A DNA stretch of 32,145 bases from Spirochaetales bacterium. GTDB taxonomy: Bacteria; Spirochaetota; Spirochaetia; SZUA-6; JAFGRV01. A program made the position numbers and the translations under genes. The stretch lies in the NCBI GenBank assembly GCA_016930085.1, contig JAFGHO010000008.1:1-32145 (forward strand), given 5' to 3'. Within the stretch, counting starts at the first letter, position 1. Every line of letters starts with the position of its first letter. Below, piece after piece: positions 8,597 through 27,881 of the stretch. Below the pieces are notes generated by a model. That model did not search any database, was not told where the DNA came from, and worked only from the letters and a program-made list of their open reading frames with translations.

Positions 8597-8615
8597 GAAC
8601 AAAGGAAAAGAGAGC

Positions 8616-11600: not shown

Positions 11601-11690
11601 CGGGATTATCATGATGAATATGCCATAAAGCGCTATATTCAAAAGAAATGGGACGATCTCATTGAACGCTTTGATGTCCCGAAGACATAA
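8616..11690 (+). CDS. HEAT-repeat protein with C-terminal class III adenylate/guanylate cyclase
   Basis: A 1024-residue cytoplasmic protein without signal peptide or TM segments. Residues 1 to about 740 are all-helical with HEAT-like repeat spacing (for example VVIPHLYEIIEKGKPAQRIAAIKTLAG), so this part is probably a protein-binding solenoid. Residues about 758-920 are a class III nucleotide cyclase: metal Asp768 in LFIDMVGYT, Asp812 in KKMGDGILAVF, and Asn872/Arg876 in NIASRME for the transition state. All catalytic residues seem present, so it should be active and make cAMP or cGMP; the substrate is not certain. A 100-residue helical tail of unknown role follows. ATG 8616 is set by AAGGA 9 bases upstream and by the promoter. 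The gene appears monocistronic: the next gene has its own promoter. Confidence 0.9.
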   Translation: MLTKKEEIVFGKESKISILGLLKNYYDDEIFSALIREYYNTDIDISIAAIASSGVIGNEVVIPHLYEIIEKGKPAQRIAAIKTLAGIKAPSSIQRLIEYYGFFHDEAIRNEIMKSLNTIGPTHKNVGELNRTIFLSPDSNESLKVTVTKALVESEEFELLKRQLPVVPQKVIKAAFFALLSSESEEASICIRFFKDKTELFSSSTLGYFLAAYLIRSKYPQQSYIIDKLRTAEHRTLVAFLIAIKKCGGKISQPINVFRTLLIIPYINAFTETATGTILERIIAEGEAHSQSSSQYQLNEMAMMTKTHIDSIFSKIKHGYISIKNIGDKENLLMVLFTKLLEGLGNIKIVNTVKFYFRDLDFEKQDPVRIIKKIRTQLGDKDKDVLSNFKACLPVFHIRDKKERLKLLNYLKDINLHRPFLQRRLNRLIRVTGHLLLKTMVKKLSEILEFARDEKISYLEETTVVTLCQLFHKATVEQASAFLSSPDQAIPSFNGYLRGAGFMKPEYTIHSLLRLAAQPLLSRKAQLLLLRSLEKLDVKHIKGIVTQFLKLLLLPHLSDEFKMRIGNLVVSSSDASIFQILLNLTYQKGEVIRCVAVRALKVCALKHDNIPMDLLINRFYLLLEDDIGESREEVILALLAIGDDYAIQIFKDYISFNAEEAVARILNKLENPISHDILLLLLSLLRSKGHIIHRALRNVLSRLVATSHGEEIRNALLEYLNPVARQDSSLADDEKMKAIKSKKLINHAKDEFKFKRENAQVLTVLFIDMVGYTEKSSVADNISLMQLIQSFEEIVLPVIKAYKGCLVKKMGDGILAVFKHPLNASFAALTIQEKIRTGNQYKVDREKFEVRIGLNTGLVIRKDNDVFGDVVNIASRMETSANPGDILLTHATYEEIKDYVECTRLGNLHVKGKKETITAYAADSVRPDLKSIIQSGKERISSGNGKEGKNPLTILKESIFSPDFSLPESLTSHKELFSLLSRVFFDIARFSEEYTRDYHDEYAIKRYIQKKWDDLIERFDVPKT

Positions 11691-11747
11691 AAAAAAATCA
11701 CGAAGCGATATTTATTAAAAAAATTGAAGTATCTGAGGAAATTTTGC

Positions 11748-11777
11748 TTTACAGATGTAAATTCAGTGTCTTATACT
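11748..11777 (+). promoter_or_regulatory. Promoter of 7TM phosphatase gene, probably leaderless transcript
   Basis: TTTACA (11748-11753), an 18-base spacer and TATACT (11772-11777). Only seven bases separate the -10 box from ATG 11785, so the A of the ATG falls at the expected transcription start. No Shine-Dalgarno sequence precedes the ATG. Both facts point to a leaderless mRNA. Confidence 0.6.
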
Positions 11778-11784
11778 TTTATTT

Positions 11785-13917
11785 ATGGAAATAATATACG
11801 GTTTTAGTCTGCTATTATTGTTGCCTTTGTACTTTTCGACTATCGTCATGTGGTCGGATGTTAAAGACAGATCTGAGTACGGAACTCGATCGCTTCATCT
11901 CATGATATCTCTGATATTTATGATTCTGGCCGGTCTCTGCCAACTCGGCATTTATCTGTATCATGCGTTTTTAAATAAAGATCTCTTTATCATCGTTTTT
12001 TTTGCGCTTAATTTTCTCTATTATTCGGCTTTTTATATGCTTGAATATTCGATTCATTCACAGCGAATCCAGAAAAGTTTTCTGCTTTCGGATTATAAAG
12101 GTGCGGTTAAAAAAACCCTCACCCCGTTCAGTTTTTTCATTATCTATGTTGTCGGGGCGACGGCGAAATATCTCCTTATCGATGTGTTTCATATATTGAG
12201 ACCGATCAATGACCCGACCAATCTTGTCGCGGTTATCCTCTATATTATTTATTTTACCGCTGTGACGATTACGATTATCATGACGAATATGAATATATTC
12301 AAACTCCAGGAAGGAATTATACGGCAGAAGGAATATACGTTTAATACACTTCTTGTTATAAATATTGCGTTCTTCATCGTCCTTATCTTCATACCCGCTC
12401 TCATTGTCCGTCTCTGGATCTTCTTGTTTATTTTGTTTACCTTTGCCAATATCGTCTATATTATCAGGCTTATCAAGGAATATTTCTACTACAGAACCGA
12501 TCATCTGCGGCTTTGTCTGGCTTTTAACGAGGAAATACAGGAGAAACGGAATGTGCTGTTCGACAAAGCGATTAAAAGCCGTCCGGAAGAGGATGTGTCC
12601 ATACTGCGGTCGACGATGGAACAGGATATTCTCAAATCCCAGCGAGCGATCCTTTCGAGTGAATACGGCGTTACGGGGATGATGTTGCTGACGGTCGCCA
12701 ATAACATTCTCAAAGTCGAAAACAATGAATTGATTATCGGTCACTGCAATCCGATCCACGAAGTAAAGGAATTCAAACACCTCAACGAACAGCAGATCGT
12801 CAACAAGATATTACAGCGTTCGTTCGATCTGGACAGAATCGGTGCCGCGGATATAAATTCCCTGCAGGATGTGGGAGAAAAGGCGATTAATACGATCCTC
12901 AAGGAAAAAACCTTTGTCATTTATGATTATATACCGACATGTTACCGTGGAATTCAGCGGTTTATCGGACTATATCCTGTGTTTGACAATGAAGTGCTGA
13001 AGGGGATCCTCGCCATTTTCAAGGACAACAGCAATTATCTTTTTCCCGAAGAAGAGAAAGTCATATCGAGTCTCGTCGATGATATCAGGGTTATCCTCTC
13101 GATTATGGAAGGAAAGTTCATCCAGCAGGAACGGAACCGTCTCCAGGGAGAGATGAACATCGCGAAAGACATACAGTTGTCGATTCTGCCGCGATCGATC
13201 GAAATCGAAGGATATGACTGCGCATGTCTCATGGAGACCGCAACGGAAGTAGGGGGGGACGCCTATGATTACGTCAAGAGCAAGTTCGGTCATTATCTTG
13301 GCATCGGAGATGTGAGCGGACACGGCCTGCCCGCCGGTATTATGGCGTTGATACAGATGGCCGCCTTTGAATCGAGTGTCTTTTCCGCGGAAGAAATGAA
13401 TCAGGATATTTCTCCCGACAAGATTTATAATGTCGTAAACAGGGTCCTCTGTAATATCAACAAGGATCGGATCGGGAGCGATAAGTTTATGACACAGAAT
13501 TACCTGATCGAACGCGACGGAAGTATCATCCACGCAGGAACACATACGATTGCCCTGCGTTATTTTGAAAAAGAAGAAAAGGTTCTTGAACTGAGGGATT
13601 TCGCAAAGAAAACGGCTTTCCTGGGGATTACACCTTATATCAAATCGAGGGATTCCCTCGGTGTCCTCACCATGAATTCGGGCGATATTCTTCTTCTTTA
13701 TACCGACGGGGTGATCGAAGCGAAAAATCATTATCTGAAGATGTTCGGGCTCGAAAAACTGAAAGAGATCTTTCGGGGCATATCCGGGCTGTCAGCAAAG
13801 GAAATTGCTGAGAAAATCAGAGAAGAAGTATATAATTTTGCCAAAGACGGCGATGTCAAGCGGCATAACGGCGCATATGCCGATGACGTTTCCATCGTGG
13901 TAATGAAGAAATTATAA
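11785..13917 (+). CDS. 7-TM membrane protein with GAF-like and SpoIIE/PP2C phosphatase domains
   Basis: A 710-residue membrane-bound serine/threonine phosphatase of the RsbU/SpoIIE type. Seven hydrophobic helices fill residues 2-23, 38-62, 67-88, 114-136, 146-172, 188-208 and 210-231. A GAF-like region follows (about 265-450). Next come a coiled linker with the family motif AKDIQLSILP (about 470-480) and the phosphatase core. Metal-binding Asp residues are visible: Asp492 (VGGDAYD), Asp509 (GDVSGHG), Asp641 (YTDGVIEA) and Asp700/701 (ADDVS). RsbU-like enzymes usually dephosphorylate a STAS-domain antagonist; no such partner is encoded nearby. The N-terminal 7-TM unit is probably the sensor. 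There is no ribosome site before ATG 11785. Confidence 0.92.
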   Translation: MEIIYGFSLLLLLPLYFSTIVMWSDVKDRSEYGTRSLHLMISLIFMILAGLCQLGIYLYHAFLNKDLFIIVFFALNFLYYSAFYMLEYSIHSQRIQKSFLLSDYKGAVKKTLTPFSFFIIYVVGATAKYLLIDVFHILRPINDPTNLVAVILYIIYFTAVTITIIMTNMNIFKLQEGIIRQKEYTFNTLLVINIAFFIVLIFIPALIVRLWIFLFILFTFANIVYIIRLIKEYFYYRTDHLRLCLAFNEEIQEKRNVLFDKAIKSRPEEDVSILRSTMEQDILKSQRAILSSEYGVTGMMLLTVANNILKVENNELIIGHCNPIHEVKEFKHLNEQQIVNKILQRSFDLDRIGAADINSLQDVGEKAINTILKEKTFVIYDYIPTCYRGIQRFIGLYPVFDNEVLKGILAIFKDNSNYLFPEEEKVISSLVDDIRVILSIMEGKFIQQERNRLQGEMNIAKDIQLSILPRSIEIEGYDCACLMETATEVGGDAYDYVKSKFGHYLGIGDVSGHGLPAGIMALIQMAAFESSVFSAEEMNQDISPDKIYNVVNRVLCNINKDRIGSDKFMTQNYLIERDGSIIHAGTHTIALRYFEKEEKVLELRDFAKKTAFLGITPYIKSRDSLGVLTMNSGDILLLYTDGVIEAKNHYLKMFGLEKLKEIFRGISGLSAKEIAEKIREEVYNFAKDGDVKRHNGAYADDVSIVVMKKL

Positions 13918-14026: not shown

Positions 14027-15262
14027 TTATTCGTATTCGCTTTGTTTTTCTTCCATTTCCTGCTGGAGATCGAGGTATTTTTTCGTGGTGTCAATGTATT
14101 CGAGTGCGAGCAGGAATTTCGGATCGAGTTCGAGTGCCATTTCCCAGTAGGATATGGCCTGGGTAAAATTACCGACGGCATACGCTTCGAGGCCTAAAGC
14201 GAAGTATTCATCGACCTGCCGTTCGCGCGCCAGTTTTTCCTTGTAGCCGAGCCGTATTTTTGCTTCGATACTGAACTTGTCCACCGGATTCAGGCTGCCG
14301 CTGAGATCGAGATTGTAATTGGTGACGAGACTGTATTCATTCACGTCGATGCTGCACCCAAGACTTGCCCTCGGGTTTTCCTTTAACCTGAAACCGGCCT
14401 GTATCGAGAGAAATTTGGCAAAAACGACATTGATTCCCGCAGCGATATCCCAGTGTTCCGCCGGGAAATCGACCGGATCGAAACTGAAGGGAAGGTTGAA
14501 ATCCACGGCAATGGTCACCGGTCTGATAAAGGAGTATGCCAAACCGGAAGAAAAAACCATGGGAAGGGGTTCATCGACTGTCGGGATACCGAGATTTTTT
14601 ACCGCCATGCCGATGGAAAAATTCTTTGTTCGTGAACTGTAAAATTTCAACAGATCGAATCTTGTGAGGATACCGAGATCGAGCATAATGGCGGCGATCG
14701 ATTGATCTTCATAGATTTCCGCCGGGATATTCCTGTAGGCGACCTTGACATTGGCACCGAGTGCTATGCCGTCAAAATAGTAACTGGAGAAAAGGTTATA
14801 CGAGATATTGAAGGTCCCGATCGATTCGGAAATGAAACCCGAATTTTCACTTTCTCCCCAGCTGTTGTAGGCGGTAAACGGAAGATAGAGGAATTTACCG
14901 CCGAAACCAAGACCGAGATCGTGAATTTTAAAGGTATAGATAATACCTTCTATATTCGAGTCCGCGATCCAGCTGTGATGAAGAAGCGACAGTTCTGAAA
15001 ATGCCAACATCGAGCTTCCTGCGGGATTTGATTCAATGAAGCCCGAATCCGATGAAACCGCAGTGTAGGCCGTCCCCATTCCTTCGAGCTTCCCGCCGAT
15101 GGGGATAAGGAGGGTGGGGAAGATGGTTAATCCGGTATTCGGATCGGAAAAAAAAGAAAACGTTTCACTCAATTCATTGTAAAAATCTTCATAATCCGCA
15201 AAAAGAGAGTATGAAAAGACACTGATTATGATAAAACAGAGTAATATTGTGCGTCTGTTCAT
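14027..15262 (-). CDS. UPF0164-like outer-membrane barrel protein with C-terminal TPR
   Basis: A 411-residue exported protein. Residues 1-22 are a Sec signal peptide (hydrophobic core LLCFIIISVFSYSL, cleavage likely after LFA). The body (about 45-335) has the pattern of UPF0164/FadL-like spirochaete outer-membrane proteins: the opening GGKLEGMGTAYTAVSSD, the ESNPAGSS turn, and many alternating strands with aromatic ends. Known UPF0164 proteins include Treponema pallidum TP0548 and TP0858. Residues about 345-395 form a TPR-like helical pair (YFALGLEAYAVGNFTQAISY), followed by a Gln/Glu-rich tail. The ATG has GGAGGG just upstream on the - strand. This is the only - strand gene in the window, divergent from 15723 and convergent with 11785. 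A role in uptake of hydrophobic compounds is an inference from FadL. Confidence 0.85.
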   Translation of the reverse strand: MNRRTILLCFIIISVFSYSLFADYEDFYNELSETFSFFSDPNTGLTIFPTLLIPIGGKLEGMGTAYTAVSSDSGFIESNPAGSSMLAFSELSLLHHSWIADSNIEGIIYTFKIHDLGLGFGGKFLYLPFTAYNSWGESENSGFISESIGTFNISYNLFSSYYFDGIALGANVKVAYRNIPAEIYEDQSIAAIMLDLGILTRFDLLKFYSSRTKNFSIGMAVKNLGIPTVDEPLPMVFSSGLAYSFIRPVTIAVDFNLPFSFDPVDFPAEHWDIAAGINVVFAKFLSIQAGFRLKENPRASLGCSIDVNEYSLVTNYNLDLSGSLNPVDKFSIEAKIRLGYKEKLARERQVDEYFALGLEAYAVGNFTQAISYWEMALELDPKFLLALEYIDTTKKYLDLQQEMEEKQSEYE

Positions 15263-15722
15263 AATCCCTCCCTCTATAATATACTTTTTTTTATTTCAAT
15301 ATTCCAGATATCAGGATTTTTTTATTTTAAAATCCTGTATTATAAACGACCATTATATGCTATTATATCCCCGGGCAGTATTTGAAGCAACACCATGTTT
15401 ATAAAAGAAATCTCCATGGTAATATCCGTTTCTCGTATATAACGATATCATAGTCGGCGGCATTTATTGCCGGTCATCCCGGTTATACGGGTATCGACGG
15501 ACGCGGATAAGGTAACCCTTCTATATTGATCGGCATGAAAGGATATAAAATCTTTTTTTTTGTCGATAATATGATAAATTATAAGAGGATCTTTTGGAGA
15601 GCGGATGATTTGCCCGATGGGACGTTTGTCTCTTAAAGAGAGGCAGATGAAATGAATGAGTCTCGTATCGACAATACCTTTTCCAGTTTCATGAAATACC
15701 TGGATATCAGGGGGAATTATCG
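15263..15722. other. Divergent intergenic region, AT-rich, with palindromes
   Basis: This 460-base gap separates the - strand outer-membrane protein gene from the + strand TPR gene and should contain both promoters. It holds a perfect 8-bp inverted repeat AGGATTTT/AAAATCCT (15313-15336), two adjacent small hairpins (15458-15472 CGGCA/TGCCG and 15478-15491 CCCG/CGGG), a T10 run near 15552 and AT-rich boxes (TATGAT 15570, TATAAG 15580). I could not fix a -35/-10 pair with confidence. The only open frame worth noting is a 24-codon ORF at 15652. Confidence 0.6.
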
Positions 15723-15726
15723 TTGA
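15652..15726 (+). CDS. Possible 24-codon upstream ORF coupled to the TPR gene
   Basis: ATG 15652 opens a 24-residue frame (MNESRIDNTFSSFMKYLDIR...) ending at TGA 15724-15726, which overlaps the TTG start of the next gene as TTGA. A GAGAGG stretch lies about 9 bases before the ATG. It could be a leader peptide whose translation feeds ribosomes to the weak TTG start; atpE and the DUF2764 gene show the same overlap. The peptide resembles nothing I know, and such a short frame can occur by chance. Confidence 0.25.
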   Translation: MNESRIDNTFSSFMKYLDIRGNYR

Positions 15727-18700
15727 TAGAAGCGGCCGGATATAAGGCACAACAAGTATTTTTCGCTGCACTCATTCTCATGACACTCGCCTTGAATGCT
15801 TTTGCAGGCGGTCAAAAGGAAGACAAGCTTTCCCGTGCAAAAGAACTCTATACGCTGAAATATTACGATAAAGCGCTTTTACTGCTGGCGGAAGTGGTGA
15901 GAGAGGATCCCGACCGTCGTGATCAAGCGATTGCACTCTCGAACAAGATTATCAATATACGTGACGAGTACAATGAATTATACGAGGTGTTGATCGATAC
16001 CCTCTACAACAAACTCGATGTCGATGCCGCACTTGCCATCATCGAAGAGATGAAAGAGAAGGATCCGTACCCCAATGAGAAAACAAAATCAACGGTGCAG
16101 ATTGCCGAAGACGCGGCCAGTGTCGTTGCCAATAAAAACTATTTCGAAAATATCATGGAAGAAGCACTCACTTATATCAGGGAAAACGATTTTTTCATGG
16201 CCGTCGAGGTATACCTGAACGGTTATAACGCGATGCCCCCCGTTGATTTACATCGAAGCGAGTTTGACGCCGAGACGCTCGATGCAATCACAGAAAGCGA
16301 TGTGACGGCATCGCTCTCGCGCATTCGGGAGACATCGGAAGTCGTTATTGAAGCCGGCAAAAAGGTGAAGGAGACGGTCGAAGGTTATATCGATGGGATC
16401 GATACACTGCTTGTTAACGGTGATATCCCTTCTTTTGATGGTCTTATCGATAATTTTATCACGATCGGCGGCCGGGCGGAGGCAATAAAGGAAGCAGCGG
16501 AGACGTTGAAATTTCAGGCGGACCGGTTACGCGAACGTGTCACGACGGCAAAAAGTGTTCTCTACCTGAAATATCTGTATCAGATTGCAACTGGGCGTGA
16601 AGAAAGCAAAGGCTATGAAGGAATCATCTATGCGGTCGAAGCCATGGTGAAATATAACGCTTCAAGACTTTCCGGGACATATAACATGAAATCCGAATCC
16701 TTCCTGACGGAAGGAAAGGCGTCCTTCGATCGGGGTGCTTTCGAAGAAGCGCGTACAAATTACAGGAATGCCGTGATCATGAGCAGACCGGTTCTTCCTG
16801 TTGCTTATTTTTCCGACACGGGGCAAAAGCTGCCCGAAGGTTTTTCTCTGACGACCTTCAGTACATGGATTATCGATGAAGCATTGATTTCTTTCATGGA
16901 TGCCGAAGAAGACGCGAAAAAAACCCTTGCCTATCTCTATATCCTCGATTACCAGGAGCAGCTGAATACCTTTTTTGCGGAGGGCGGGACACCGGATGAA
17001 GAAGCGCTTCGCCGTTTCGCCGCTGATATCGAGAAAAATCTTTCCGGAATAGAACGCCTTTCTCGACATTGGGAAGGATATATGAGAGAGCGTCGGGAGA
17101 AAACGCCATTGACATTCAATATGACCTCCTCGAACGTCGTCATCTCTTTGTGCGCGAAAACGATCTCTGCATTCATCGGAAAACAGGTACAACAACTCGC
17201 TTCATACCTGTCGTCGCAGAAAAGGTATTTTCCGGGCGAAAAGGAACTGCTCAAGACCGGAGAGCCGCACGACGAATACGGAAGGGTTTATTATCCCGAC
17301 CGCCGACTCATCGCGTTCAACCGGATACTTGAATCGTTATCGTTTCTCGATGAAAGTATTGAAACGCTTACGGCCCGCTGGTCACAGGAAGATGTCCTTG
17401 CCGATCAGGCAGACCTGCAGAAGGCGTTAAGCGATGCGGTTCTCCTGAAGAACGAAGCGGCGCTTTTCAGGGAAGAAGTGGAAGGAGAAGCCAAAACCGC
17501 GGAGGCGAATATCCTCGAAGCGAAAAAATTCAGGGATATCGGAAACAGGCGTTACGATGAAACACAGCGGGCTTACAGAAGGGATGAATTTGGAATAGTG
17601 GAGGAAAAAATAAGGGAAGCGACGGACGCCTATGACAACTCCCTCCAATATCAGGAAGACGCGACCGTCCGCAGCAGACGCCTTGAACTTGTCAGGTTAC
17701 AGCAGGATATAATCAAGGATCTTGATAGAATCGTCAGAAGAGAAGTCGAACGGCTGATAGAAAAGGGAATCGATCTTTACGCGAAAGCGCTTTACGAAGA
17801 CTCCCTCTCGACATTCCTCACCGCCGAGGACAGATGGAATGATACGCATACGGAAGAAAATCCTGAAATCAAGGTATGGCTCGGTTATGTACGGGAGGCA
17901 TTGACAATCGAATCCGAACGGAGTATTTCAGTAAAACATCCCCTCTACAAGGAAATGATGCAGTTGTATAATCTTGCAAAGCAGGATTATAATGACGGCG
18001 TGAAATTGAAACGGGAAGGGAATATCGAGGAAGGAATCGCGTCGATACGGCGGGCGGAAGAAAAATTGCTGAAAATCAAACAGCAGTTTCCGTATAATAA
18101 CGACGCAAATATTCTCAAACTCATGTGCACGAAAGAAAGGGACAACTCGGAATATCAGGAGACCGTCCGCCAGATCCAGACGGACGCACAGGCAAAATTA
18201 AACGAAATAAAGAGGGAAAAAGCGACGACACCGGGAAAGGTCGAGATTACCAAAGATCAGCGGGATGCGTACAATAACCTGAAGGACCTCATCGCTGTTG
18301 AAACGAAAAACACGGCACTGAAACGTCTTATCACCGATTTTGAAAACGAACTGTTTCCGGGCAAGGCACCGGTATCCGAGGAACGGAAAAGGCTTTCTCA
18401 AGAAAAAACGGAGCAGGCAAAACCCTATGTCGAACGAAAGGAAAAGGATTATTATCCCCTTGCAAAGGAACTTCTCGCGGAAGCGATCGAACTTGATCCG
18501 ACAAACAACAGGGCCAAGCAGTTGTACAATCAGGTAACGATCGAAGAAGGCCCCGACAAGGTATGGGTTTTGCCGCCTGCCGATAAAAGGCGGTATGAAG
18601 AGGCATTGCAGCTTGTGATTGACGGTGATTATCTCAGGGCAAGCACGATCGTGGATCAATTGCTTCAGAAATACAGCGGCTATGAAGATCTGGTTAAACT

Positions 18701-18728
18701 TAAAAACAGAATAGCGGTAAATTTGTGA
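15723..18728 (+). CDS. Large periplasmic helical/TPR protein, 1001 aa
   Basis: An exported 1001-residue protein of unknown function. Residues 1-29 are a signal peptide (core VFFAALILMTLALNAFA, cleavage likely AFA|GG). A TPR-like pair follows at once (AKELYTLKYYDKALLLLAEVV, about 38-60). The rest is nearly all helical and highly charged. It has TPR-like segments at about 330-350, 680-700 and 955-985, and long coiled-coil stretches at about 550-660 and 740-800. No enzymatic motif is visible. The start is TTG 15723, with AGGGGG 8 bases upstream; the first in-frame ATG would destroy the signal peptide. The next gene starts 68 bases downstream and encodes an exported sensor phosphatase, so this may be its periplasmic scaffold or binding partner, which is an inference from position only. 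Confidence 0.85.
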   Translation: MIEAAGYKAQQVFFAALILMTLALNAFAGGQKEDKLSRAKELYTLKYYDKALLLLAEVVREDPDRRDQAIALSNKIINIRDEYNELYEVLIDTLYNKLDVDAALAIIEEMKEKDPYPNEKTKSTVQIAEDAASVVANKNYFENIMEEALTYIRENDFFMAVEVYLNGYNAMPPVDLHRSEFDAETLDAITESDVTASLSRIRETSEVVIEAGKKVKETVEGYIDGIDTLLVNGDIPSFDGLIDNFITIGGRAEAIKEAAETLKFQADRLRERVTTAKSVLYLKYLYQIATGREESKGYEGIIYAVEAMVKYNASRLSGTYNMKSESFLTEGKASFDRGAFEEARTNYRNAVIMSRPVLPVAYFSDTGQKLPEGFSLTTFSTWIIDEALISFMDAEEDAKKTLAYLYILDYQEQLNTFFAEGGTPDEEALRRFAADIEKNLSGIERLSRHWEGYMRERREKTPLTFNMTSSNVVISLCAKTISAFIGKQVQQLASYLSSQKRYFPGEKELLKTGEPHDEYGRVYYPDRRLIAFNRILESLSFLDESIETLTARWSQEDVLADQADLQKALSDAVLLKNEAALFREEVEGEAKTAEANILEAKKFRDIGNRRYDETQRAYRRDEFGIVEEKIREATDAYDNSLQYQEDATVRSRRLELVRLQQDIIKDLDRIVRREVERLIEKGIDLYAKALYEDSLSTFLTAEDRWNDTHTEENPEIKVWLGYVREALTIESERSISVKHPLYKEMMQLYNLAKQDYNDGVKLKREGNIEEGIASIRRAEEKLLKIKQQFPYNNDANILKLMCTKERDNSEYQETVRQIQTDAQAKLNEIKREKATTPGKVEITKDQRDAYNNLKDLIAVETKNTALKRLITDFENELFPGKAPVSEERKRLSQEKTEQAKPYVERKEKDYYPLAKELLAEAIELDPTNNRAKQLYNQVTIEEGPDKVWVLPPADKRRYEEALQLVIDGDYLRASTIVDQLLQKYSGYEDLVKLKNRIAVNL

Positions 18729-18796
18729 TCGGCAATCGCATTTATGATCACTCACATGGATGTAAACATCGTCATAGAGAGAAAAAATGAATATAT

Positions 18797-21700
18797 ATGA
18801 AGTGTAAACACCTGGCCTTTTTCTGTACCATCTTTATGCTCCTCTTTTCCCTCACCGCCTTTGCGCAAAGTATAAATTGGGAGACCCCGCGCATACTGGT
18901 ACAATCCGGCGCGCGGTTTGTCAATGCGGTGTCGGGGGGAGATATGATCGCCCTGATGTGGCAGGAGTTTGACGAGAACAACACGGGAAGCGGGGGGAAA
19001 ATCTACCTTTCTCTCTGGACGACAACCGATACCGTGACATGGAAAAAGAATGAACGTTTTGCCGGACCTTTTACCTTTTCGGACAAGGAAACCCAGATAT
19101 ATTCGCTGGTGGTCGACCGCTTCGGTAACATTTATTGCGCCGTCGTCAGCGGAGAAAGGAAGACGACACTCTATTATTCGGACGACGGCGGAAGCAATTT
19201 TGTCGCGACGGAAATTACCGCCGGGCGGGCGACCGTCTCACCGCGGCTTTTCTTACGGGATAATGGCGAGTTTTTCCTTTTTCTTACCTATGAAACGAAA
19301 GATAATCTTTCACTCTATTATATTATCGCCGATCGATCGATCTTTTTCACCCCGTCGCATTCGAAAGAGTTCAGGCCGTTTCTTTCGAACGAAAACCTCG
19401 GATTCAATTTTCTTCCCCATCACTGTCATTATCGGGGTCTGGATTATATCGCCTTTCAGGCAAGCGACAGAGGGACCGCATACCAGATTTATATTAAAAT
19501 CAGTGATGACGGCGGCATCACCTGGAGCGATGCGAAACAGATAACGACCTTTACCGAACGCTGGAGAGAAAAAGAACAGGCACCGATTGATTTTAAAAAC
19601 CAGCGGCCGTATATAAAAGCAATGGGAGACTCGCTTTTTCTGACCTGGGAACGTCAATTCACCGGAGAAGTCGGTCAGGTATCCCAGATATATTATGCCG
19701 AACTGAGGGAAGACGGCGGAATAAAAACATGGGAGAGGGTGACGAATACTTCATATGCCTCCATATTTCCCCAGATCATTCACTACAATAACATGAATTA
19801 TCTCATATGGTTCGATAATCCCGGAAAGGACCATATACGTATCGCCCACCGCGGAACATATGAATGGGAAACGAAAGATCTTACGCCGCGGATCGATGGG
19901 GATTCCCGGTTTCCCCAGCCCGTGCAGATCCGTGATAATCTCTATATCTTCTGGGAGACTGTCCAGGGAACGAAATCGCTTCTCTATATTCTCGAACCGG
20001 ATCAAAGTGTACGGCCGCCGGATGTATATCCACTCAATTTTTCACCGGGAAAACCCTCACAGAGATCGACGGTGGCGATACGCTGGACCGTCCCCGAGGA
20101 TCCTTCCGGAATCGCCAGTTTTCTTTATGCATGGACTCAGTCGCGGATTGTTCGTGATGAGCTGATGCAGGAAGTCTACAGGACGGAGACCTCCGGCAAT
20201 TTTGAAGCGACAAAAGACGGGGTCTGGTATTTCCATATCAAGGCGGGGGATCTGGCGGGAAACTGGTCGGATATGGTGACCGTCAGCTTCATCCGTGACA
20301 CGACACCCCCGGGAAAGGTTTCCTTTAAACCACTCAAGACCGATGAACGGGGATTTCTTACCTCGAATTCATTTTCCATTGACTGGAATCCCCCCCCGGA
20401 CGGCGACGTTGCCGGGTACGCGTATGTATTTGAAAAGATAAGCGGAAACAGCGATCTTCCACTCGATCGTGTTCCTCCGGACGCTATCAGGGATCCTCCA
20501 TCATCGATTATGTTGTTTGCGACGGAAAAATCCTATAATAACCGGGATAACGGTGTGTGGGGTTTTTCCGTGCGTGCGATCGACCGGGCGGGTAATGCCG
20601 GAGAACCGGCTGTTTTATTTTTCAGATTGAATAAATATATACCGGTCACTATCGTTTCAAACGTTTTTTCACGTCAGAACTCAAACAATGAAACGGTTCT
20701 TTCCATTGAAGGCCGCGGTTTTCTCACCGACGGGGTGATTGAGGAGATTCATCTCGATAAAGACGGAAATGCTCCCTACGATTATTCATACGAATATAAT
20801 GAAGCGGATTACTCGATAAAAAATGACCGATTTATCGACGAGTTGAAACCGGACATCGAAGAGAAGGCCTTGTTCCGGCTTCTCCTTATTCACAAAAAAA
20901 GGGGACGGTATATCTACCCGTATCAACTGGAGATTGAACCGGGGGGAACGGTCAAGGCCCGCCCCCCGGATACGGTTCGAGAGGAATGGCAGGATGTTGC
21001 CACACCGCTTTTAAGCCTGAGTATGAACGAAGCGGTTATCTGGCTGATTGTCCTTTTTCTTTCCATCGTATCCATCACATCTCTCACAAAACTTGCCGGG
21101 GTTGTCCGGGAAGGCCAGATTATTCAGGCGGAGGTTTTAGCCATTATGAAAGGAAAAGAACCCGAGGATAAAAAAAAGACAGGCATCAGGAAGCTTCGAA
21201 CCAAAGGTGTCGGTTTGAGGATCAAGTTTACTCTTCTTATCACCTCGCTTATCCTCATTATCATTCTCATGCTTTCAATCACATTAAGTTATTACATGAT
21301 CGAAACACAGGGAAAGAATCTTGCGGAGGGGTTGGAGAAACAGGTGAAAGTACTTATAGGAAGTCTTGCCTCCGGAGCCGAAAAATATCTTCCTCTTCAG
21401 AATGCGCTTGAACTCGACGCCCTGGTCGATCAGACTGACGCCATGGAAGAGGCACGTCATGCGACGATTACCGGAATCAGCAGGCGCGGTTCCGAGGAGC
21501 CCTCCATGGAAGAATTTGTGTGGGCGACGAATAATGAAGAAGGAATTGATGCGATCATCGATACGCAGGAGTACAGGGTCGGCGAATCAGTTATTGAAGA
21601 CGAGGTATCACCCCTTGTCCCCGATATCGCGAAAGAGATCAACAGGAAAGCTTCGGAGCAGGTCGGAGAACTCGTCGAAGAAATCAACGAACTGATCAAG

Positions 21701-23356
21701 GATTACGCGGTCTACGCTTTACGAAAAGACCAGCAGGCGATTCAGGAAGCGGCAAGAATCGACGAAGCGCGAAAGGAAAAAAGCAATCTTGTTACGCAAA
21801 TACTTCACGGCGTCAGTAATTCCTATGAGGGGAGTGTCCCGCCGTTTGACGTCAAAAATTTAAAAGAATCATATGTATTCTACAAACCGGTTGTCTACCG
21901 GGGCAGGGATATATTCTTCCGCGGTATGGTGAGGGTGGAGGTTTCTACGGAAAATATTCTCGAAACCATTTCCCAATCGAGAACCGAACTAATACGCCGG
22001 ATCATCATCATCTCCCTGATAGCTATCGCGCTTGGTATCGCGGGGGCGATCCTGCTTGCATCGATTACGATCCTGCCGATCAAGAAGCTGGCACGGGGCG
22101 TTGCAATCATCCGTGATACCGAGGATAAAACAGCACTCAAGGATCATATCATCGAAATACGTCAGAAAGACGAGATACAGATGCTTGCAGAAACAATCAA
22201 TCAGATGACCCAGGGTCTCGTCAAGGCGGCGATCGCAAATAAGGACCTTACCGTCGGTAAGGAGGTTCAGAAGATGTTCATCCCGCTCGAACGCGATGAA
22301 AACGGTAAAAAAGGCTCGACCGGCGAAGATACGAATAAGTTCATCGAGATTTTCGGTTATTATGAAGGGGCGAAGGGGGTTTCCGGAGATTATTTTGATT
22401 TTGTCAGACTGGACGACGCTCATTATGCGATTATCAAGTGTGACGTGGCGGGGAAAGGGGTGCCCGCCGCCCTTATCATGGTTGAGGTCGCCACGATCTT
22501 TATCGATTATTTTCACGGCTGGAAGGCTTCCTCATCCGGCGTCAACACGGAAGAGCTTGTTTATAAAATCAACGACCTCGTCGAGGAACGGGGATTCAAG
22601 GGAAGGTTTGCCGCCCTCATCGTCGCCATCATCGATATCAAAAAAGGAATCGCCTATTGTTGTAATGCAGGTGATAATATCCTTCACTCCTACAGCGCTC
22701 AGAAAGACGATATGGTTCAGATCCAGCTGCCGCAGGCGCCTGCGGCCGGTGTTTTCCCTTCGGATCTCGTACAGATGCAGACGAGTTTCAAACAGGTCCC
22801 GGTCGGCATGAAGCAGGATGATATTCTCTTTCTTTTCAGTGACGGTTTTGACGAGGCAAAGAGACTTTTCAGGAATCGGAATTTCGAGCCCGTCAAATGC
22901 GACGAGCCATCGATTCGTGACAATGAACCGCATTTGGGAACGCATAATAAAGGGGATGACGGAGAAGAGTTCGGAATCGAAAGGCTATACGGAGTCATCG
23001 ACGCGGTCATTCACGGCAAACAATACCGGCTAATCAAACATCATAATCCCGTTCAGGATGAAGAGCTTGTTTTCGATTTTTATGCCGCCGACAGGAATAT
23101 CAGGAACATAATCATGGCCATGGTTTCCGTTGAAAAAATATATCGGACATATAAAAATCCGAAAGCCGGTCCCGAAGATAAAATTCTCGTGGACAGAAAA
23201 GTCGACGCCTTTCTCCAGGAACATTTTCTGCAGTACGGTGAATATTTCCGGCATCGAATCGAATTGTCCGACAATCCTGCATATGTGGCTTTTTCACATA
23301 TCAATGAAGACGAGCAGTATGACGACCTCACGATCCTCGGCGTACGGAAAAAGTAA
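18797..23356 (+). CDS. Giant sensor phosphatase: propeller, Ig/FN3-like, HAMP, SpoIIE/PP2C
   Basis: A 1519-residue multi-domain membrane phosphatase. Residues 1-23 are a signal peptide (cleavage AFA|QS). Residues about 25-400 look like a sialidase-type beta-propeller, with an Asp box SDDGGITW near 235 and a degenerate one near 128. Two Ig/FN3-like domains (about 405-630, one preceded by DTTPPG) follow. TM1 is about 745-765, TM2 about 812-836, a second periplasmic part about 837-1065 and TM3 about 1068-1090. A HAMP linker (about 1090-1145) leads to the SpoIIE/PP2C core: Asp1198 (SGDYFD), Asp1216 (CDVAGKG), Asp1349 (FSDGFDEA) and Asp1509/1510 (YDDLTILG). The part between the last two motifs is unusually long. 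An outer signal probably controls a cytoplasmic phosphatase. ATG 18797 has a weak site (GAGAG about 14 bases away). Confidence 0.9.
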   Translation: MKCKHLAFFCTIFMLLFSLTAFAQSINWETPRILVQSGARFVNAVSGGDMIALMWQEFDENNTGSGGKIYLSLWTTTDTVTWKKNERFAGPFTFSDKETQIYSLVVDRFGNIYCAVVSGERKTTLYYSDDGGSNFVATEITAGRATVSPRLFLRDNGEFFLFLTYETKDNLSLYYIIADRSIFFTPSHSKEFRPFLSNENLGFNFLPHHCHYRGLDYIAFQASDRGTAYQIYIKISDDGGITWSDAKQITTFTERWREKEQAPIDFKNQRPYIKAMGDSLFLTWERQFTGEVGQVSQIYYAELREDGGIKTWERVTNTSYASIFPQIIHYNNMNYLIWFDNPGKDHIRIAHRGTYEWETKDLTPRIDGDSRFPQPVQIRDNLYIFWETVQGTKSLLYILEPDQSVRPPDVYPLNFSPGKPSQRSTVAIRWTVPEDPSGIASFLYAWTQSRIVRDELMQEVYRTETSGNFEATKDGVWYFHIKAGDLAGNWSDMVTVSFIRDTTPPGKVSFKPLKTDERGFLTSNSFSIDWNPPPDGDVAGYAYVFEKISGNSDLPLDRVPPDAIRDPPSSIMLFATEKSYNNRDNGVWGFSVRAIDRAGNAGEPAVLFFRLNKYIPVTIVSNVFSRQNSNNETVLSIEGRGFLTDGVIEEIHLDKDGNAPYDYSYEYNEADYSIKNDRFIDELKPDIEEKALFRLLLIHKKRGRYIYPYQLEIEPGGTVKARPPDTVREEWQDVATPLLSLSMNEAVIWLIVLFLSIVSITSLTKLAGVVREGQIIQAEVLAIMKGKEPEDKKKTGIRKLRTKGVGLRIKFTLLITSLILIIILMLSITLSYYMIETQGKNLAEGLEKQVKVLIGSLASGAEKYLPLQNALELDALVDQTDAMEEARHATITGISRRGSEEPSMEEFVWATNNEEGIDAIIDTQEYRVGESVIEDEVSPLVPDIAKEINRKASEQVGELVEEINELIKDYAVYALRKDQQAIQEAARIDEARKEKSNLVTQILHGVSNSYEGSVPPFDVKNLKESYVFYKPVVYRGRDIFFRGMVRVEVSTENILETISQSRTELIRRIIIISLIAIALGIAGAILLASITILPIKKLARGVAIIRDTEDKTALKDHIIEIRQKDEIQMLAETINQMTQGLVKAAIANKDLTVGKEVQKMFIPLERDENGKKGSTGEDTNKFIEIFGYYEGAKGVSGDYFDFVRLDDAHYAIIKCDVAGKGVPAALIMVEVATIFIDYFHGWKASSSGVNTEELVYKINDLVEERGFKGRFAALIVAIIDIKKGIAYCCNAGDNILHSYSAQKDDMVQIQLPQAPAAGVFPSDLVQMQTSFKQVPVGMKQDDILFLFSDGFDEAKRLFRNRNFEPVKCDEPSIRDNEPHLGTHNKGDDGEEFGIERLYGVIDAVIHGKQYRLIKHHNPVQDEELVFDFYAADRNIRNIIMAMVSVEKIYRTYKNPKAGPEDKILVDRKVDAFLQEHFLQYGEYFRHRIELSDNPAYVAFSHINEDEQYDDLTILGVRKK

Positions 23357-23400
23357 CTGTTTCCATGCAGCATGTGCCGGTCAACTTCTTTTGGAAACAG
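23357..23400 (+). other. Perfect 9-bp inverted repeat directly after the phosphatase stop
   Basis: CTGTTTCCA (23357-23365) and TGGAAACAG (23392-23400) are perfect complements separated by 26 bases; the left arm begins at the first base after TAA. No T-run follows, so it is unlikely to be an intrinsic terminator. It may stabilise or process mRNA between this gene and the one at 23451, or bind a regulator. Confidence 0.6.
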
Positions 23401-23450
23401 GCCGATATGATTAATGGAGATCCGGTATCACCGTTATGAGGAGCAGATCG

Positions 23451-24149
23451 ATGAAAAAATTAATTATCCTGGTAAGTCTTGTTGTTCCGCTGTTTCCCTT
23501 TCTTGCCGTGGATACGATCAACGATGATCTCGAAAGCGGTGATGCCGCGGCGGTATACGGCCGCTCGATGATTACGATCGACAACAGCTATAATGACTGG
23601 TCAATGATTCCCGAGGTAGCATCTTTTTCCGCGCAAGGCAGGCCGTACACATTCAACAGGGAAAAGGACGGTATTCTGGAAAGCCTTTCTATCGATAAAT
23701 CGATCTACTGGGGGCATAACGGAACGAATCTGAAAAGCATAAAGGCATTTCTCGGAAGCGATACCATCGCATTCCATATCTCTTCATATTCTCCGTTTTC
23801 TGACGGCCTGATCCTTTTCCTTTACCTCTTCAAGGAAAGAAACAAGGGTGAGCCGAATTATTACACGATCGAAATCAATATCGACGTGAAACAGAGAAAC
23901 GGTATCGTCTATCTCTGGGAACGCGGCGGGAACGATGCCCTTGAAATCGGGACGGCGGCGGTCAACACGGAGGAGTTCGAGTGCGAGTTTTCGATCGAGG
24001 CGCTTCCTCTGTCCTTAAGGGAAGATTTTATCGCATCGTATTCATTTGATCTGACCACATGCTATTATAATCGGGTCAAAAGAACCTATGAGGAGTTTTT
24101 CTTTACCACCTTGAAAGTGAAGAATATTCCTTCATCACAGGATATATAG
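23451..24149 (+). CDS. Secreted beta-rich protein, 232 aa
   Basis: A small exported protein of unknown function. Residues 1-19 are a signal peptide (MKKLIILVSLVVPLFPFLA). The mature part is rich in beta-strands and aromatics. It contains ITIDNSYNDWSMIPEVASF and a later IYWGHNGTNLKSIKAFLGSDTIAFHI, a layout that recalls DOMON/CBM9-like ligand-binding folds (a D-W-x-x-I-P strand followed by strands describing a property). I cannot confirm the family. ATG 23451 with AGGAG 7 bases upstream is better than the in-frame ATG at 23436, which overlaps that ribosome site. It follows the giant phosphatase gene by 94 bases in the same direction, so it may be a periplasmic partner of that sensor. Confidence 0.75.
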   Translation: MKKLIILVSLVVPLFPFLAVDTINDDLESGDAAAVYGRSMITIDNSYNDWSMIPEVASFSAQGRPYTFNREKDGILESLSIDKSIYWGHNGTNLKSIKAFLGSDTIAFHISSYSPFSDGLILFLYLFKERNKGEPNYYTIEINIDVKQRNGIVYLWERGGNDALEIGTAAVNTEEFECEFSIEALPLSLREDFIASYSFDLTTCYYNRVKRTYEEFFFTTLKVKNIPSSQDI

Positions 24150-24272: not shown

Positions 24273-24300
24273 TTGATTATCAAACACGAGATGATATATT
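24273..24300 (+). promoter_or_regulatory. Possible promoter of SNF2 gene
   Basis: TTGATT (24273-24278), a 16-base spacer and TATATT (24295-24300); TATTAT at 24297-24302 with an 18-base spacer is an alternative -10. Transcription would start near 24307, so the upstream in-frame starts TTG 24273 and ATG 24291 would not be on this mRNA. Confidence 0.5.
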
Positions 24301-24314
24301 ATACGACGGGAAAT

Positions 24315-27300
24315 ATGATGCGATACCCGCAGGTGATAAAATATGTCGGTAAACTCATCTATGAAAGGGGACTCGACTATTATAACGAAAAAAAAATATT
24401 GACATTTCACCGCGAGAAAAACCATATTGACGCTCGGGTTTTTGGATCGGCGAACAATGAATACTCGGTCACTGTCGATCTCGATGAGAACGGCGATGTA
24501 AAAGAGGCGCATTGCAGTTGTCCGTACTGGCAGCGGTGTAAACATGTCGCTGCGGTCTTGATTCACGCTTTCTCGGATAACGAAGGGCGGCCCGATGAAG
24601 AATCACCACCCCCGTTTCCGGTTGTCGGGGCGAAAACTGAAAAGATCATCCAGCTCGATTATTCTAAAGAACCTTCCCGGGACCTGGCGCATAACCTCCG
24701 TCAAATAGAAGAAAAAATGTCTCCCGGCCATTCCGATGACGGCAAAGAGTGGAGGCTTGTCTTCAAGATAAAAAAAAACCCGGACGCATCCGGTCAGCCG
24801 GTCGAATGGTTTATAACGCCCGGTATCCGGCTGCTTAAAAAAGACGGAACGCCGGGGAATGTTTACAATTACCGGAAAAAAAAATGCATCACGTATTCCT
24901 CCATTGAAGAAAAATTGCTTCAACGCCTTCTCAACAAACCGGGCTATAAAGACGATTTTGTCCATTATCTGGAAACCCTGATCGATAATGACGGAATACC
25001 GCTTGTCGTCCAGCACGGTTATGAAACGCATGAGATTCAACGGCACGTCATCAAAACGACACACCTCGAATTCGAAATACAGGAAATACAGCAATTGGAT
25101 GCGTTTTTTTCTCCCGTATTGACATTTCATTACGGCGACGGGATGAACCGAACCGTCACTCCCGCGGACGGCGCGGTTCTGAACGACGGATCGGTTTGCG
25201 CGGTACTCTCATATGACGGATCATTGCTTTATAAAAAAAATAACGGAATATATGCCGCCATTATCACGCATATATTTACCTTTGACAAGCTCTATACGCC
25301 GTCGGATATCGCGTCATTAGGCGATTTTATAAAAACAAAAGCTCCGGATGACATCACCGTGAGTTTTCACTCTCAGCAGATTAATCTGGTAAGCCACACG
25401 CCGAAACCCGTCCTTGAAATAAATCCGTTTCTTCACAACAGGATGACAATCGCTCTCCTCTTCGATTATGCGGGAAATATTATCGAATACAGCAAGGACG
25501 ACGGTTTTATCATACATAAAAGCAGGGGAAAGGAAATAACCGTATTAAGAAAAGACAGGATAACCGAACGTGATATTTTCGAACGTCTTAAAACTTTTTT
25601 CCGGGAATACGCAGCGGGCTGGCAATATCCGCAACATCAGGGAGAAATATACCTTGAAATCGATATTTCGACCTTTCTTTCACGGTTCAGTGAGGAACTT
25701 ATCCGGGAAGGATATATGATACGGATCGGCAGGGGGAAAATTTTAAAACGCGGCGGAGGAACATTCCGCCTTGACGTTTCATCCGGAATCGACTGGTTTG
25801 ATATCTCCCTTCTATATACCGACGAAGAAGGACATTCCCACACGGCCGTTCTGGATATCAACGACATCAAACAGGGGCTTGTGGAAGCGGGCGGATCATA
25901 TATTCTTCTCGATGCGGACAATATGGAAAAAGTGAAACTGCTTTTTCGTTCGTGTCGTCTCGAAAAGGGAATACTCCGCTCCCAAAAGCTCAACTTTTCG
26001 GCGATCGATATTCTTTACGAAGAGATCGCTTCCAGTGGTGACGGTACCATCGAGAAGTTCAGGACAATTTACGAAAAACTGAAGAACATTACGGCAATCC
26101 CCGATTACCGGTTGCCTGAACAATTTCGATGCACCCTCAGGCAGTATCAGCGTGCGGGGTATAACTGGCTTTCCTTTCTTGAAGAAGTCGGCATCAACGG
26201 CTGCCTGGCGGATGATATGGGACTCGGAAAAACGGTACAGACCCTCGCACTCATCATGCGGCTCAAAGAAGCGGAAAACCTCGGGCAGTGCCTTATCGTC
26301 GTTCCCGTGTCCACCCTCGCAAACTGGGAAAGTGAAATCGAACGATTCACCCCGGCGCTTTCCTGCATAAGACATGCGGGCCAGGGGAGGGCAACCTCGA
26401 TCGACGATATTTCCGGTTATGATTGCGTCCTGGTGAGCTACCATACCCTGCGGAACGATATCGAGATTTTCTCAGAGAAGACCTTTCACTACCTGATTCT
26501 CGATGAATCGCAGAATATCAAAAACGCGAATACAAAGACATTCAAAGCAGTACGGTCGATCAAGTCGGATCACCGGCTTTCACTGACAGGGACCCCCGTT
26601 GAGAACAACACACTCGAACTCTGGGCTCAAATGGAATTCCTCAATCCGGGTATTCTGGGATCACAGAAGACATTCAAAAATCATTATACGGTACCGATTG
26701 AAGAGTACCGGGACCGTTCCGCTTCCGCGGAACTCAAAAAACGGATATTCCCTTTTATATTACGCAGAAAGAAGGAAGATGTCGTCCGCGAACTCCCGGA
26801 AAAGGAGATTATTTACCGTTTCCTTGAAATGGGAACATTACAGCGGGAGGCATATTGTGAAGTGAATACCATATACAGGGAAAAGATAAATGCCGCGATT
26901 GATCGCAAAGGGGTAAAACGATCCGCGATTGAAATAATCGAAGCAATGCTCCGCCTGAGACAGATATCCCTTTTTCCTTTTTTGGTTTCTGAAAAGTACG
27001 GCAATATCGAATCATGCAAGTTCGAGTTTTTCAAGGAAATGATTCAGGAAATACTCACGGAAGATCATAAAATACTTGTATTCTCTCAATTCGTTCAGGT
27101 ACTTAAACAACTCGAAGCATATGTATCGGGAAGCGATATCGATTACGCATACATCGACGGTTCGACGAAGAAAAGAAAAAAAGAAATCGAACGGTTTCAG
27201 AAGGACCCGGATGTCAGGGTTTTTCTCCTGAGTCTGAAAGCGGGCGGACTCGGGATCAATCTTACCGCGGCCGATTATGTCATTCTTTTCGATCCGTGGT

Positions 27301-27518
27301 GGAATCCGGCGATCGAGCAACAGGCGATCGACCGCACGCACAGAATCGGACAGACGCAGAAGGTGATCGCGTATAAACTGATCGTCAAAGGCTCGATCGA
27401 GGAAAAGGTGATCGAACTTCAGCGCAAAAAGGAAAAACTCATCCGTTCGGTAATAGCGGACGATAAATCGATCTTCAAATCATTCAACAAAGAAGATATC
27501 ATGATGTTTTTCAAGTGA
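24315..27518 (+). CDS. SWIM zinc-finger SNF2-family helicase/ATPase
   Basis: A 1067-residue cytoplasmic DNA-dependent ATPase of the bacterial SNF2/RapA-like group. The SWIM zinc finger is at Cys67, Cys69, Cys75 and His77 (CSCPYWQRCKH). A long middle region (about 100-590) of uncertain fold precedes the SF2 core. Core motifs: I DDMGLGKT (633-640), II DESQ (730-733, where DEAH or DEAQ is common), III LTGTPVENN, V LKAGGLGINLT and VI QQAIDRTHRIGQ (about 1001-1012). All ATPase motifs are intact. ATG 24315 is chosen because GGG precedes it and the likely promoter overlaps earlier starts; ATG 24318, or 24291 and TTG 24273 upstream, remain possible. SNF2 enzymes move along double-stranded DNA and remodel protein-DNA complexes; the target here is unknown. 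Confidence 0.93.
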   Translation: MMRYPQVIKYVGKLIYERGLDYYNEKKILTFHREKNHIDARVFGSANNEYSVTVDLDENGDVKEAHCSCPYWQRCKHVAAVLIHAFSDNEGRPDEESPPPFPVVGAKTEKIIQLDYSKEPSRDLAHNLRQIEEKMSPGHSDDGKEWRLVFKIKKNPDASGQPVEWFITPGIRLLKKDGTPGNVYNYRKKKCITYSSIEEKLLQRLLNKPGYKDDFVHYLETLIDNDGIPLVVQHGYETHEIQRHVIKTTHLEFEIQEIQQLDAFFSPVLTFHYGDGMNRTVTPADGAVLNDGSVCAVLSYDGSLLYKKNNGIYAAIITHIFTFDKLYTPSDIASLGDFIKTKAPDDITVSFHSQQINLVSHTPKPVLEINPFLHNRMTIALLFDYAGNIIEYSKDDGFIIHKSRGKEITVLRKDRITERDIFERLKTFFREYAAGWQYPQHQGEIYLEIDISTFLSRFSEELIREGYMIRIGRGKILKRGGGTFRLDVSSGIDWFDISLLYTDEEGHSHTAVLDINDIKQGLVEAGGSYILLDADNMEKVKLLFRSCRLEKGILRSQKLNFSAIDILYEEIASSGDGTIEKFRTIYEKLKNITAIPDYRLPEQFRCTLRQYQRAGYNWLSFLEEVGINGCLADDMGLGKTVQTLALIMRLKEAENLGQCLIVVPVSTLANWESEIERFTPALSCIRHAGQGRATSIDDISGYDCVLVSYHTLRNDIEIFSEKTFHYLILDESQNIKNANTKTFKAVRSIKSDHRLSLTGTPVENNTLELWAQMEFLNPGILGSQKTFKNHYTVPIEEYRDRSASAELKKRIFPFILRRKKEDVVRELPEKEIIYRFLEMGTLQREAYCEVNTIYREKINAAIDRKGVKRSAIEIIEAMLRLRQISLFPFLVSEKYGNIESCKFEFFKEMIQEILTEDHKILVFSQFVQVLKQLEAYVSGSDIDYAYIDGSTKKRKKEIERFQKDPDVRVFLLSLKAGGLGINLTAADYVILFDPWWNPAIEQQAIDRTHRIGQTQKVIAYKLIVKGSIEEKVIELQRKKEKLIRSVIADDKSIFKSFNKEDIMMFFK

Positions 27519-27530
27519 CGGAGCGGTGAT

Positions 27531-27881
27531 ATGAAATCGAGGTTTTTATGTGAAGGATGCGGAATGCAGGTCCCTTTCGATGCGGCATCCTGCCCTTATT
27601 GTCATAAGGAGTTCAAGGCGGTCAGATGTCCCGTCTGCGGCCTGGTCGGCCGTCCGGAGCAGTTTCTTTCAGGTTGTCCTTCCTGCGGATATCTCATGTC
27701 AAATGAATTGTCTTTACCACCGTCCCGCAGGAAAAAAAAGAAAAAACGCATGAAATATACGTTCGAAAGAAAAAAAAAGCGGCGATCTGCCGTGCCTCTG
27801 ATCGTTTATCGGTTCGCAGGCGTCGTCATTTTTATTCTGCTCGTTATCATCGTTTTTCTGTATATACGGTCTTTGGCATGA
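27531..27881 (+). CDS. Small double zinc-ribbon protein with C-terminal TM anchor
   Basis: A 116-residue protein with four CxxC pairs: CEGC, CPYC, CPVC and CPSC within residues 8-52. They fit two zinc ribbons. A very basic linker (about 66-86, runs of Arg and Lys) and one C-terminal hydrophobic helix (about 89-112) follow. By the positive-inside rule the ribbons should face the cytoplasm. GGAG is 7 bases before ATG 27531. It starts 12 bases after the SNF2 stop, so the two are almost certainly co-transcribed. A membrane-tethered adaptor for nucleic acid or for the SNF2 enzyme is possible, but this is inference from basic charge and position. Confidence 0.85.
   Translation: MKSRFLCEGCGMQVPFDAASCPYCHKEFKAVRCPVCGLVGRPEQFLSGCPSCGYLMSNELSLPPSRRKKKKKRMKYTFERKKKRRSAVPLIVYRFAGVVIFILLVIIVFLYIRSLA

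Follow-up and report, generated by a model that had tools for sequence, protein, structure and literature searches.

A conserved pair of genes for a TPR-like protein and a giant sensor phosphatase in Spirochaetia, with a predicted role in trans-envelope signalling

The draft genome (5.36 Mb) of a Spirochaetales bacterium carries on contig C8 three consecutive genes for an exported helical protein, a giant membrane-bound phosphatase and a small exported beta protein. Positions 1–32145 of that contig, the whole stretch of DNA analysed, are referred to here as the window. An earlier reading made from the letters alone (the sequence-only reading) took the three genes for an envelope signalling module matching no named system, which raises the question of whether they form a conserved unit and, if so, what that unit does. 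All three open reading frames (ORFs) were confirmed to be open and on the same strand, as had been claimed:

15723..18728, + strand: exported helical protein resembling tetratricopeptide repeat (TPR) proteins, 1001 amino acids, TTG start; core partner by co-occurrence and adjacency; probable orthologue of TP0855
18797..23356, + strand: membrane sensor phosphatase (the sensor), 1519 amino acids, identified by Pfam and by its relatives; probable orthologue of TP0854
23436..24149, + strand: exported protein with a predicted CBM9/DOMON fold, 237 amino acids; accessory, found downstream of the sensor in 17 other genomes

A consensus promoter and terminator scan gave counts close to the shuffled expectation and was used solely for the lack of terminators in the gaps at 18729–18796 and 23357–23435, in which it found no terminator-like sites.

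Conservation was followed in two collections. The phylum sample consisted of 296 Spirochaetota genomes and contained 54 members of the class Spirochaetia with a full-length sensor; a second collection supplied the best 80 sensor loci (the nearest relatives), which were used for neighbourhood counts. These 80 loci were all from Spirochaetota, chiefly Spirochaetales metagenome-assembled genomes and Treponema, and a search for viral relatives of the sensor found none. Single-sequence searches detected a TPR-type gene in 53 of the 54 class genomes with a full-length sensor, and a profile search found it directly upstream of the sensor in the 54th (G290), giving 54/54. The two genes were adjacent on the same strand in the order TPR–sensor in 52 of 53 genomes, the remaining genome having them on different contigs. 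Among the nearest loci a TPR ORF preceded the sensor in 76 of 80; three of the four exceptions begin at a contig edge, which leaves L140 as the one genuine exception. The pair is conserved across the class, with a signal far beyond chance. In the TPR-like protein the C-terminal half (residues 521–1001) is conserved.

The third gene did not share this constancy. It was present in 14 of the 80 nearest loci, in both f11 genomes matched in the phylum sample and in G049, lying directly or one ORF 3′ of the sensor in those 17 genomes. The trio was rejected as a conserved unit, as only 13 of the 65 loci with enough downstream sequence contained the third gene, none of them labelled Treponema. The core conserved unit is the TPR-like protein plus the sensor, and the CBM9-like gene is accessory. 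The three-gene proposal therefore holds for its first two members: the co-occurrence and gene-order search across Spirochaetota decisively contradicts the view that these two are never neighbours, and only the third gene drops out of the core.

The sensor combines the following parts, with domain frequencies taken from a Pfam scan of 24 full-length relatives:

18878..20011, + strand: periplasmic Asp-box propeller, residues ~28–405; BNR_2 in 18/24 relatives, weak Protein Data Bank (PDB) profile matches to sialidases
20012..21001, + strand: periplasmic immunoglobulin (Ig)/FN3-like domains, residues ~406–735; Big_13 in 16/24 relatives, fn3 in 2
21032..21088, + strand: transmembrane helix TM1, residues 746–764, from hydropathy
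21230..21286, + strand: transmembrane helix TM2, residues 812–830, from hydropathy
21296..21952, + strand: second extracytoplasmic domain, apparently Cache/PAS-like with a helical hairpin, residues ~834–1052; AlphaFold2 model, sCache_3_2 in 1/24 relatives
22001..22057, + strand: transmembrane helix TM3, residues 1069–1087, from hydropathy
22055..22219, + strand: HAMP domain (PF00672), residues 1087–1141; 23/24 relatives
22334..23353, + strand: SpoIIE/RsbU-type PP2C phosphatase (PF07228), residues ~1180–1519; fold match and invariant Asp residues
23012..23278, + strand (borders approximate): family-specific extra segment of ~95 residues inside PP2C; profile gap 1372–1521 in the outgroup sensors L163–L165

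In the window sensor itself Pfam detected SpoIIE (E 7e-20; PF07228 at 72 bits against a cut-off of 25) and HAMP (E 7e-5), with weak Asp-box/BNR matches. SpoIIE was present in all 24 relatives. The propeller and Ig parts, weak in the window sensor, are clear in relatives, which bears out the sequence-only reading of a periplasmic Asp-box propeller with Ig/FN3-like domains and a PP2C end. Hydropathy gives three TM helices beyond the signal peptide, and the sensor therefore has two extracytoplasmic regions, the propeller/Ig part (1–740) and ~220 residues between TM2 and TM3. In an AlphaFold2 model of residues 735–1519 (predicted local distance difference test (pLDDT) 86, predicted template modelling score (pTM) 0.54) the latter region starts with a long helix and has two pairs of strands into which a helical hairpin is inserted. 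It looks Cache-like, its topology agreeing with a PAS-like sheet that follows a long N-terminal helix between two TM helices; the one sCache_3_2 match had an E-value of 4e-6, and the structure search was dominated by the PP2C part.

The PP2C part gave its fold matches in VIA-align to the RssB PP2C (Z 22.3), the RsbU domain (Z 21.6) and SiaA (Z 21.5), and its metal-binding Asp residues 1198, 1216, 1349, 1509 and 1510 are invariant in 24/24 and 42/42 sequences. With RsbU, SpoIIE and RssB-type PP2C proteins it shares the SpoIIE-family catalytic domain, these invariant aspartates, HAMP and a linker; it differs in the ~95 extra PP2C residues, the giant two-part periplasmic sensor and the lack of STAS or kinase genes at the locus. 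The PP2C domain of Spirochaetia members is longer by that segment than in outgroup sensors; among these, L163 has its SpoIIE domain complete. The extra residues explain why Pfam covers just positions 1–138.

Natural losses and gene splits tie these parts together. Six genomes (G206, G212, G259, G276, G288 and G262) keep a Cache–HAMP–PP2C sensor without the propeller/Ig ectodomain. In five of them the protein has 748–914 residues and the match begins at the membrane half; in G262 it is seen just as a weak match to that half (E 9e-5). Five of the six lack a TPR-family match, the sixth (G288) having a weak one (E 6e-6) in a 582-residue frame elsewhere in the genome, and UPF0164, an outer-membrane protein family treated below, is absent from all six. 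The association of TPR loss with ectodomain loss has a Fisher p of 2e-8, uncorrected for phylogeny. Since G212 retains a signal peptide, its ectodomain was removed by internal deletion, and since the six genomes span five genera and two families, several losses are likely, again with no phylogenetic correction. In nine genomes of family f34 (loci L181, L183, L192, L195–L197 and L200–L202) the propeller/Ig part (BNR_2), the TPR protein and HAMP–SpoIIE are three tandem same-strand genes; other loci read, e.g. L182, L194, L198, L199 and L204, have the propeller gene without TPR or HAMP–PP2C neighbours. In the other families of L163–L165, a full-length sensor without the PP2C extra segment still has a TPR-family gene upstream. 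Taken together, ectodomain loss, fission and the L163–L165 loci link the TPR protein with the ectodomain and the latter with the phosphatase, so that propeller, TPR protein and phosphatase make up one signalling unit.

A more constant third partner than the CBM9-like gene lies upstream, outside the reported 15723–24149 interval:

14027..15262, − strand: outer-membrane protein of the UPF0164/PorV family (FadL-like), carrying a TPR motif at its C-terminus; PF03687 E 4.6e-39, TPR_1 E 4.9e-6
15263..15722, no strand: divergent intergenic region between the UPF0164 and TPR genes, possibly a shared control region; ORF coordinates and conserved arrangement

PF03687 scored 134.6 bits against a cut-off of 21.4, and a UPF0164/PorV gene is directly divergent from the pair, upstream of it, in 48 of 53 informative loci. 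This gene had not figured in the sequence-only reading, nor had the three TM segments with the second extracytoplasmic domain or the extra segment in PP2C. Genome-wide, UPF0164 was found in 8 of 9 module-positive genomes tested and in none of the six ectodomain-less or six tested sensor-negative f3/f8 genomes (p 4e-5, uncorrected for phylogeny). A supposed UPF0164–TPR fusion upstream of the sensor in L167 was rejected; the match is confined to the TPR tail of the UPF0164 profile, and the protein is a plain TPR protein. In most Treponema loci (clusters 4 and 6; e.g. L158:1828-4136) genes for a GH57 branching enzyme and a DUF4912 protein adjoin UPF0164, and in L169, L170 and L171, which have lost the ectodomain, TPR and UPF0164, they still lie beside the sensor.

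The genome G056 (1,139,633 bp, one contig), which we take from its size and its UPF0164–TPR–sensor gene order to be that of Treponema pallidum, carries three UPF0164 genes in tandem, which are divergent from the pair. It contains three SpoIIE and three STAS proteins in all. In T. pallidum, tp0856, tp0858 and tp0859 are co-transcribed FadL orthologues in this region (PMC8407342). TP0854 has been detected by proteomics and is catalogued as a phosphatase of the SpoIIE family. The tandem gene order together with this annotation led us to equate the pair with TP0855/TP0854; the UPF0164–TPR–sensor arrangement probably corresponds to TP0856/TP0855/TP0854, kept in a reduced, syphilis-sized genome. That locus has no CBM9-like gene. 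Its products have been published as single proteins (PMC10600179, PMC8407342, PMC5015957): TPANIC_0854, modelled as sialidase-like, as a 'SpoIIE family protein phosphatase', TPANIC_0855 as a hypothetical protein or predicted outer-membrane protein and TPANIC_0856 as UPF0164 (PMC10600179, PMC5015957, PMC11668736). A literature search found no paper joining TP0854, TP0855 and TP0856 as a system. The proposal that the genes belong to an envelope signalling module matching no named system is borne out to that extent, and the word 'undescribed' applies to the system but not to the T. pallidum orthologues, which are already annotated singly. The module is real and widespread, is not described as a system in the papers searched, and is built of parts of known kinds.

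What might the phosphatase act on? Of the three STAS proteins of G056, one is encoded next to the two SpoIIE phosphatases other than the sensor. The remaining two are orphans, one of them a conserved STAS–zinc-ribbon protein of 185–190 residues. Two copies, each a STAS domain with a C-terminal zinc ribbon, are encoded in the window's genome at G000:C28:52712-53254 and G000:C60:17588-18124. Among genomes with the phosphatase half of the sensor, 28/28 had a protein at least 60% identical to the window genome's copy; among those without it, 1/18 did. Within genus g6 identity was 64–69% with the sensor and 55–56% without, and within genus g18 70% and 51%, whereas the control, V-ATPase subunit B, gave 72–76% in both groups, with no difference. 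These figures are suggestive of the STAS–zinc-ribbon protein as the best candidate substrate.

Our preferred reading, at a probability of roughly 0.6, is that the pair is a trans-envelope PP2C pathway of the RsbU/SiaA type, which senses through the TPR protein and the propeller and dephosphorylates a STAS protein. Building on gene order, domain composition, catalytic-residue conservation, co-loss and gene-split patterns, we infer the physical contacts, the direction of signalling, the nature of the signal and the substrate as follows. The FadL-like UPF0164 protein would be the likely upstream element, and the periplasmic TPR-like protein would bind the propeller/Ig ectodomain and relay outer-envelope status. 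The Cache-like domain and HAMP may help the signal to cross the inner membrane, and a coiled-coil linker would then switch the dimeric PP2C domain; linker dimerisation is a general model for the regulation of these phosphatases, HAMP forms included (PMC12143880). The PP2C domain would remove phosphate from a serine of a STAS-domain protein encoded elsewhere, for which the STAS–zinc-ribbon protein is the best candidate, in a partner-switching scheme. The CBM9-like protein would be an optional addition in the periplasm that perhaps binds a ligand. A more tentative extension, which we hold at somewhat under even odds, is that UPF0164 barrel, TPR protein and propeller form a continuous chain from outer to inner membrane that reports the state of the outer membrane or the import of hydrophobic nutrients to the PP2C/STAS switch, as a spirochaetal counterpart of FecA–FecR or Rcs.

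Several observations weigh against this reading. All Pfam TPR/PPR matches in the window's TPR-like protein were under the cut-off, and the TPR assignment from that protein itself is weak; it is carried by relatives, above all the split homologue of L183 (TPR_2 E 1.6e-35). G290 has no UPF0164 gene and nevertheless keeps TPR protein and sensor, and UPF0164 is not obligatory for the pair. No STAS or kinase gene was found at the locus. G221 (71% identity without the sensor phosphatase) is an exception to the STAS correlation, which is also phylogenetically clustered. Furthermore, the g6 and g18 STAS copies from genomes without the sensor keep the phosphorylatable-serine motif, from which these copies are probably still phospho-regulated, by another phosphatase.

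A possible but rather doubtful alternative is that the TPR protein and sensor detect envelope stress or integrity, with UPF0164 a functionally unconnected passenger conserved by lineage. The opposite strand of UPF0164, the intact pair of G290 and the five of 53 loci that lack UPF0164 at this position fit a passenger. Against it stands the genome-wide absence of UPF0164 from the six ectodomain-less and the six tested sensor-negative genomes, and its presence in 8 of the 9 module-positive ones tested.

It is unlikely that the phosphatase regulates a cyclic di-GMP (c-di-GMP) or metabolic target by way of a SiaC-like STAS protein, and not a sigma factor. SiaA is among the closest folds, and RsbW-type kinases in G056 are few or very weak: the one HATPase_c_2 match (E 4.6e-4) falls in a sequence resembling a histidine kinase. 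Like the sensor, SiaA of the Pseudomonas aeruginosa SiaABCD system is an inner-membrane protein with a periplasmic region, HAMP and PP2C; unlike SiaA, the sensor has a propeller/Ig ectodomain, an extra TM helix and an exported TPR partner. Genes for the kinase SiaB, for SiaC or for the diguanylate cyclase SiaD were not found beside the sensor in the 80 nearest loci or the window annotation, which speaks against this output.

It is improbable that the propeller binds glycans or is a sialidase, in which case a host or envelope glycan would be sensed or cleaved with the help of the CBM9-like protein; the sequence-only reading leaned this way when it suggested sensing of a glycan or an envelope component. 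BNR_2 matches, weak sialidase profile matches, an Asp-box propeller in common with GH33/BNR sialidases and the CBM9 fold of the small protein favour it. Sialidase activity was rejected, as the conserved catalytic set (three Arg, Tyr/Glu, Asp) is missing from the propeller in the 24 members, whose propeller residues conserved at 90% or more include only two Arg (R270, R286) and no Tyr. The propeller is also fused to TM–HAMP–PP2C, the CBM9-like gene is lacking in most members, and the organisms include sediment and termite-gut bacteria as well as host-restricted ones.

Most of what is known of PP2C partner switching comes from Gram-positive bacteria and a few Gram-negative Cache–HAMP sensors. 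Here a giant propeller/Ig sensor with a dedicated exported partner, usually adjoining an outer-membrane barrel gene, is fixed across a class that includes T. pallidum. With just three SpoIIE and three STAS proteins in G056, the pathway could be pinned down there. If the trans-envelope reading is true, TP0854, listed as a sialidase-like pathogenesis candidate (PMC10600179), would turn out to be a signalling receptor, and TP0856/858/859, the FadL-like proteins considered as vaccine candidates, would gain a possible regulatory partner.

The CBM9-like protein was modelled by AlphaFold2 with 14 relatives (pLDDT 86). Its six best VIA-align matches were CBM9, DOMON and glucodextranase-type domains (Z 8.7–9.4, unrelated Ig folds giving Z ≤7.0), in agreement with the DOMON/CBM9-like assignment of the sequence-only reading. 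Foldseek gave no significant match for the model, and CBM9/DOMON were separated only by VIA-align. The likeness to these domains is one of fold: Pfam gave no credible match in the 14 relatives, and neither CBM9 nor DOMON at E up to 1. The sole PDB profile matches, to S1 ribosomal protein (E ~0.01), were deemed spurious. Several relatives have an extra N-terminal domain of ~130 residues, which the window copy lacks.

One further accessory gene lies downstream:

27531..27881, + strand: double zinc-ribbon protein with a C-terminal TM helix; DZR E 5.5e-6

This family is found downstream in 17 of 65 informative loci. Between it and the CBM9-like gene the window has an SNF2/SWIM helicase gene (24273–27518, +), which looks like a lineage-specific insertion; a 1077-residue gene occupies its place only in L113. 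In Treponema and termite-gut loci (L084, L088, L094, L095, L098, L102–L106 and others) a gene for an amphipathic helical-repeat protein of 110–145 residues (AGEKAQDWGEKG type) directly follows the sensor, replacing the CBM9-like and zinc-ribbon genes. A CotH-kinase protein with lamin-tail domains (29654–32143, +) is cut by the window end.

SpoIIE domains number 20 in the window's genome, two of them within the window. A 1591-residue SpoIIE protein (G000:C13:14402-14986, L159) was rejected as a paralogous module, having a weak sensor-profile match (E 1e-13) and no TPR neighbour. Just upstream of the locus, a HEAT-repeat protein with an adenylate/guanylate cyclase domain (8580–11690, +) is followed 95 bp on by a SpoIIE phosphatase (11785–13917, +) with a weak SiaA-like match, the interval 8580–13917 being a second, separate signalling pair.

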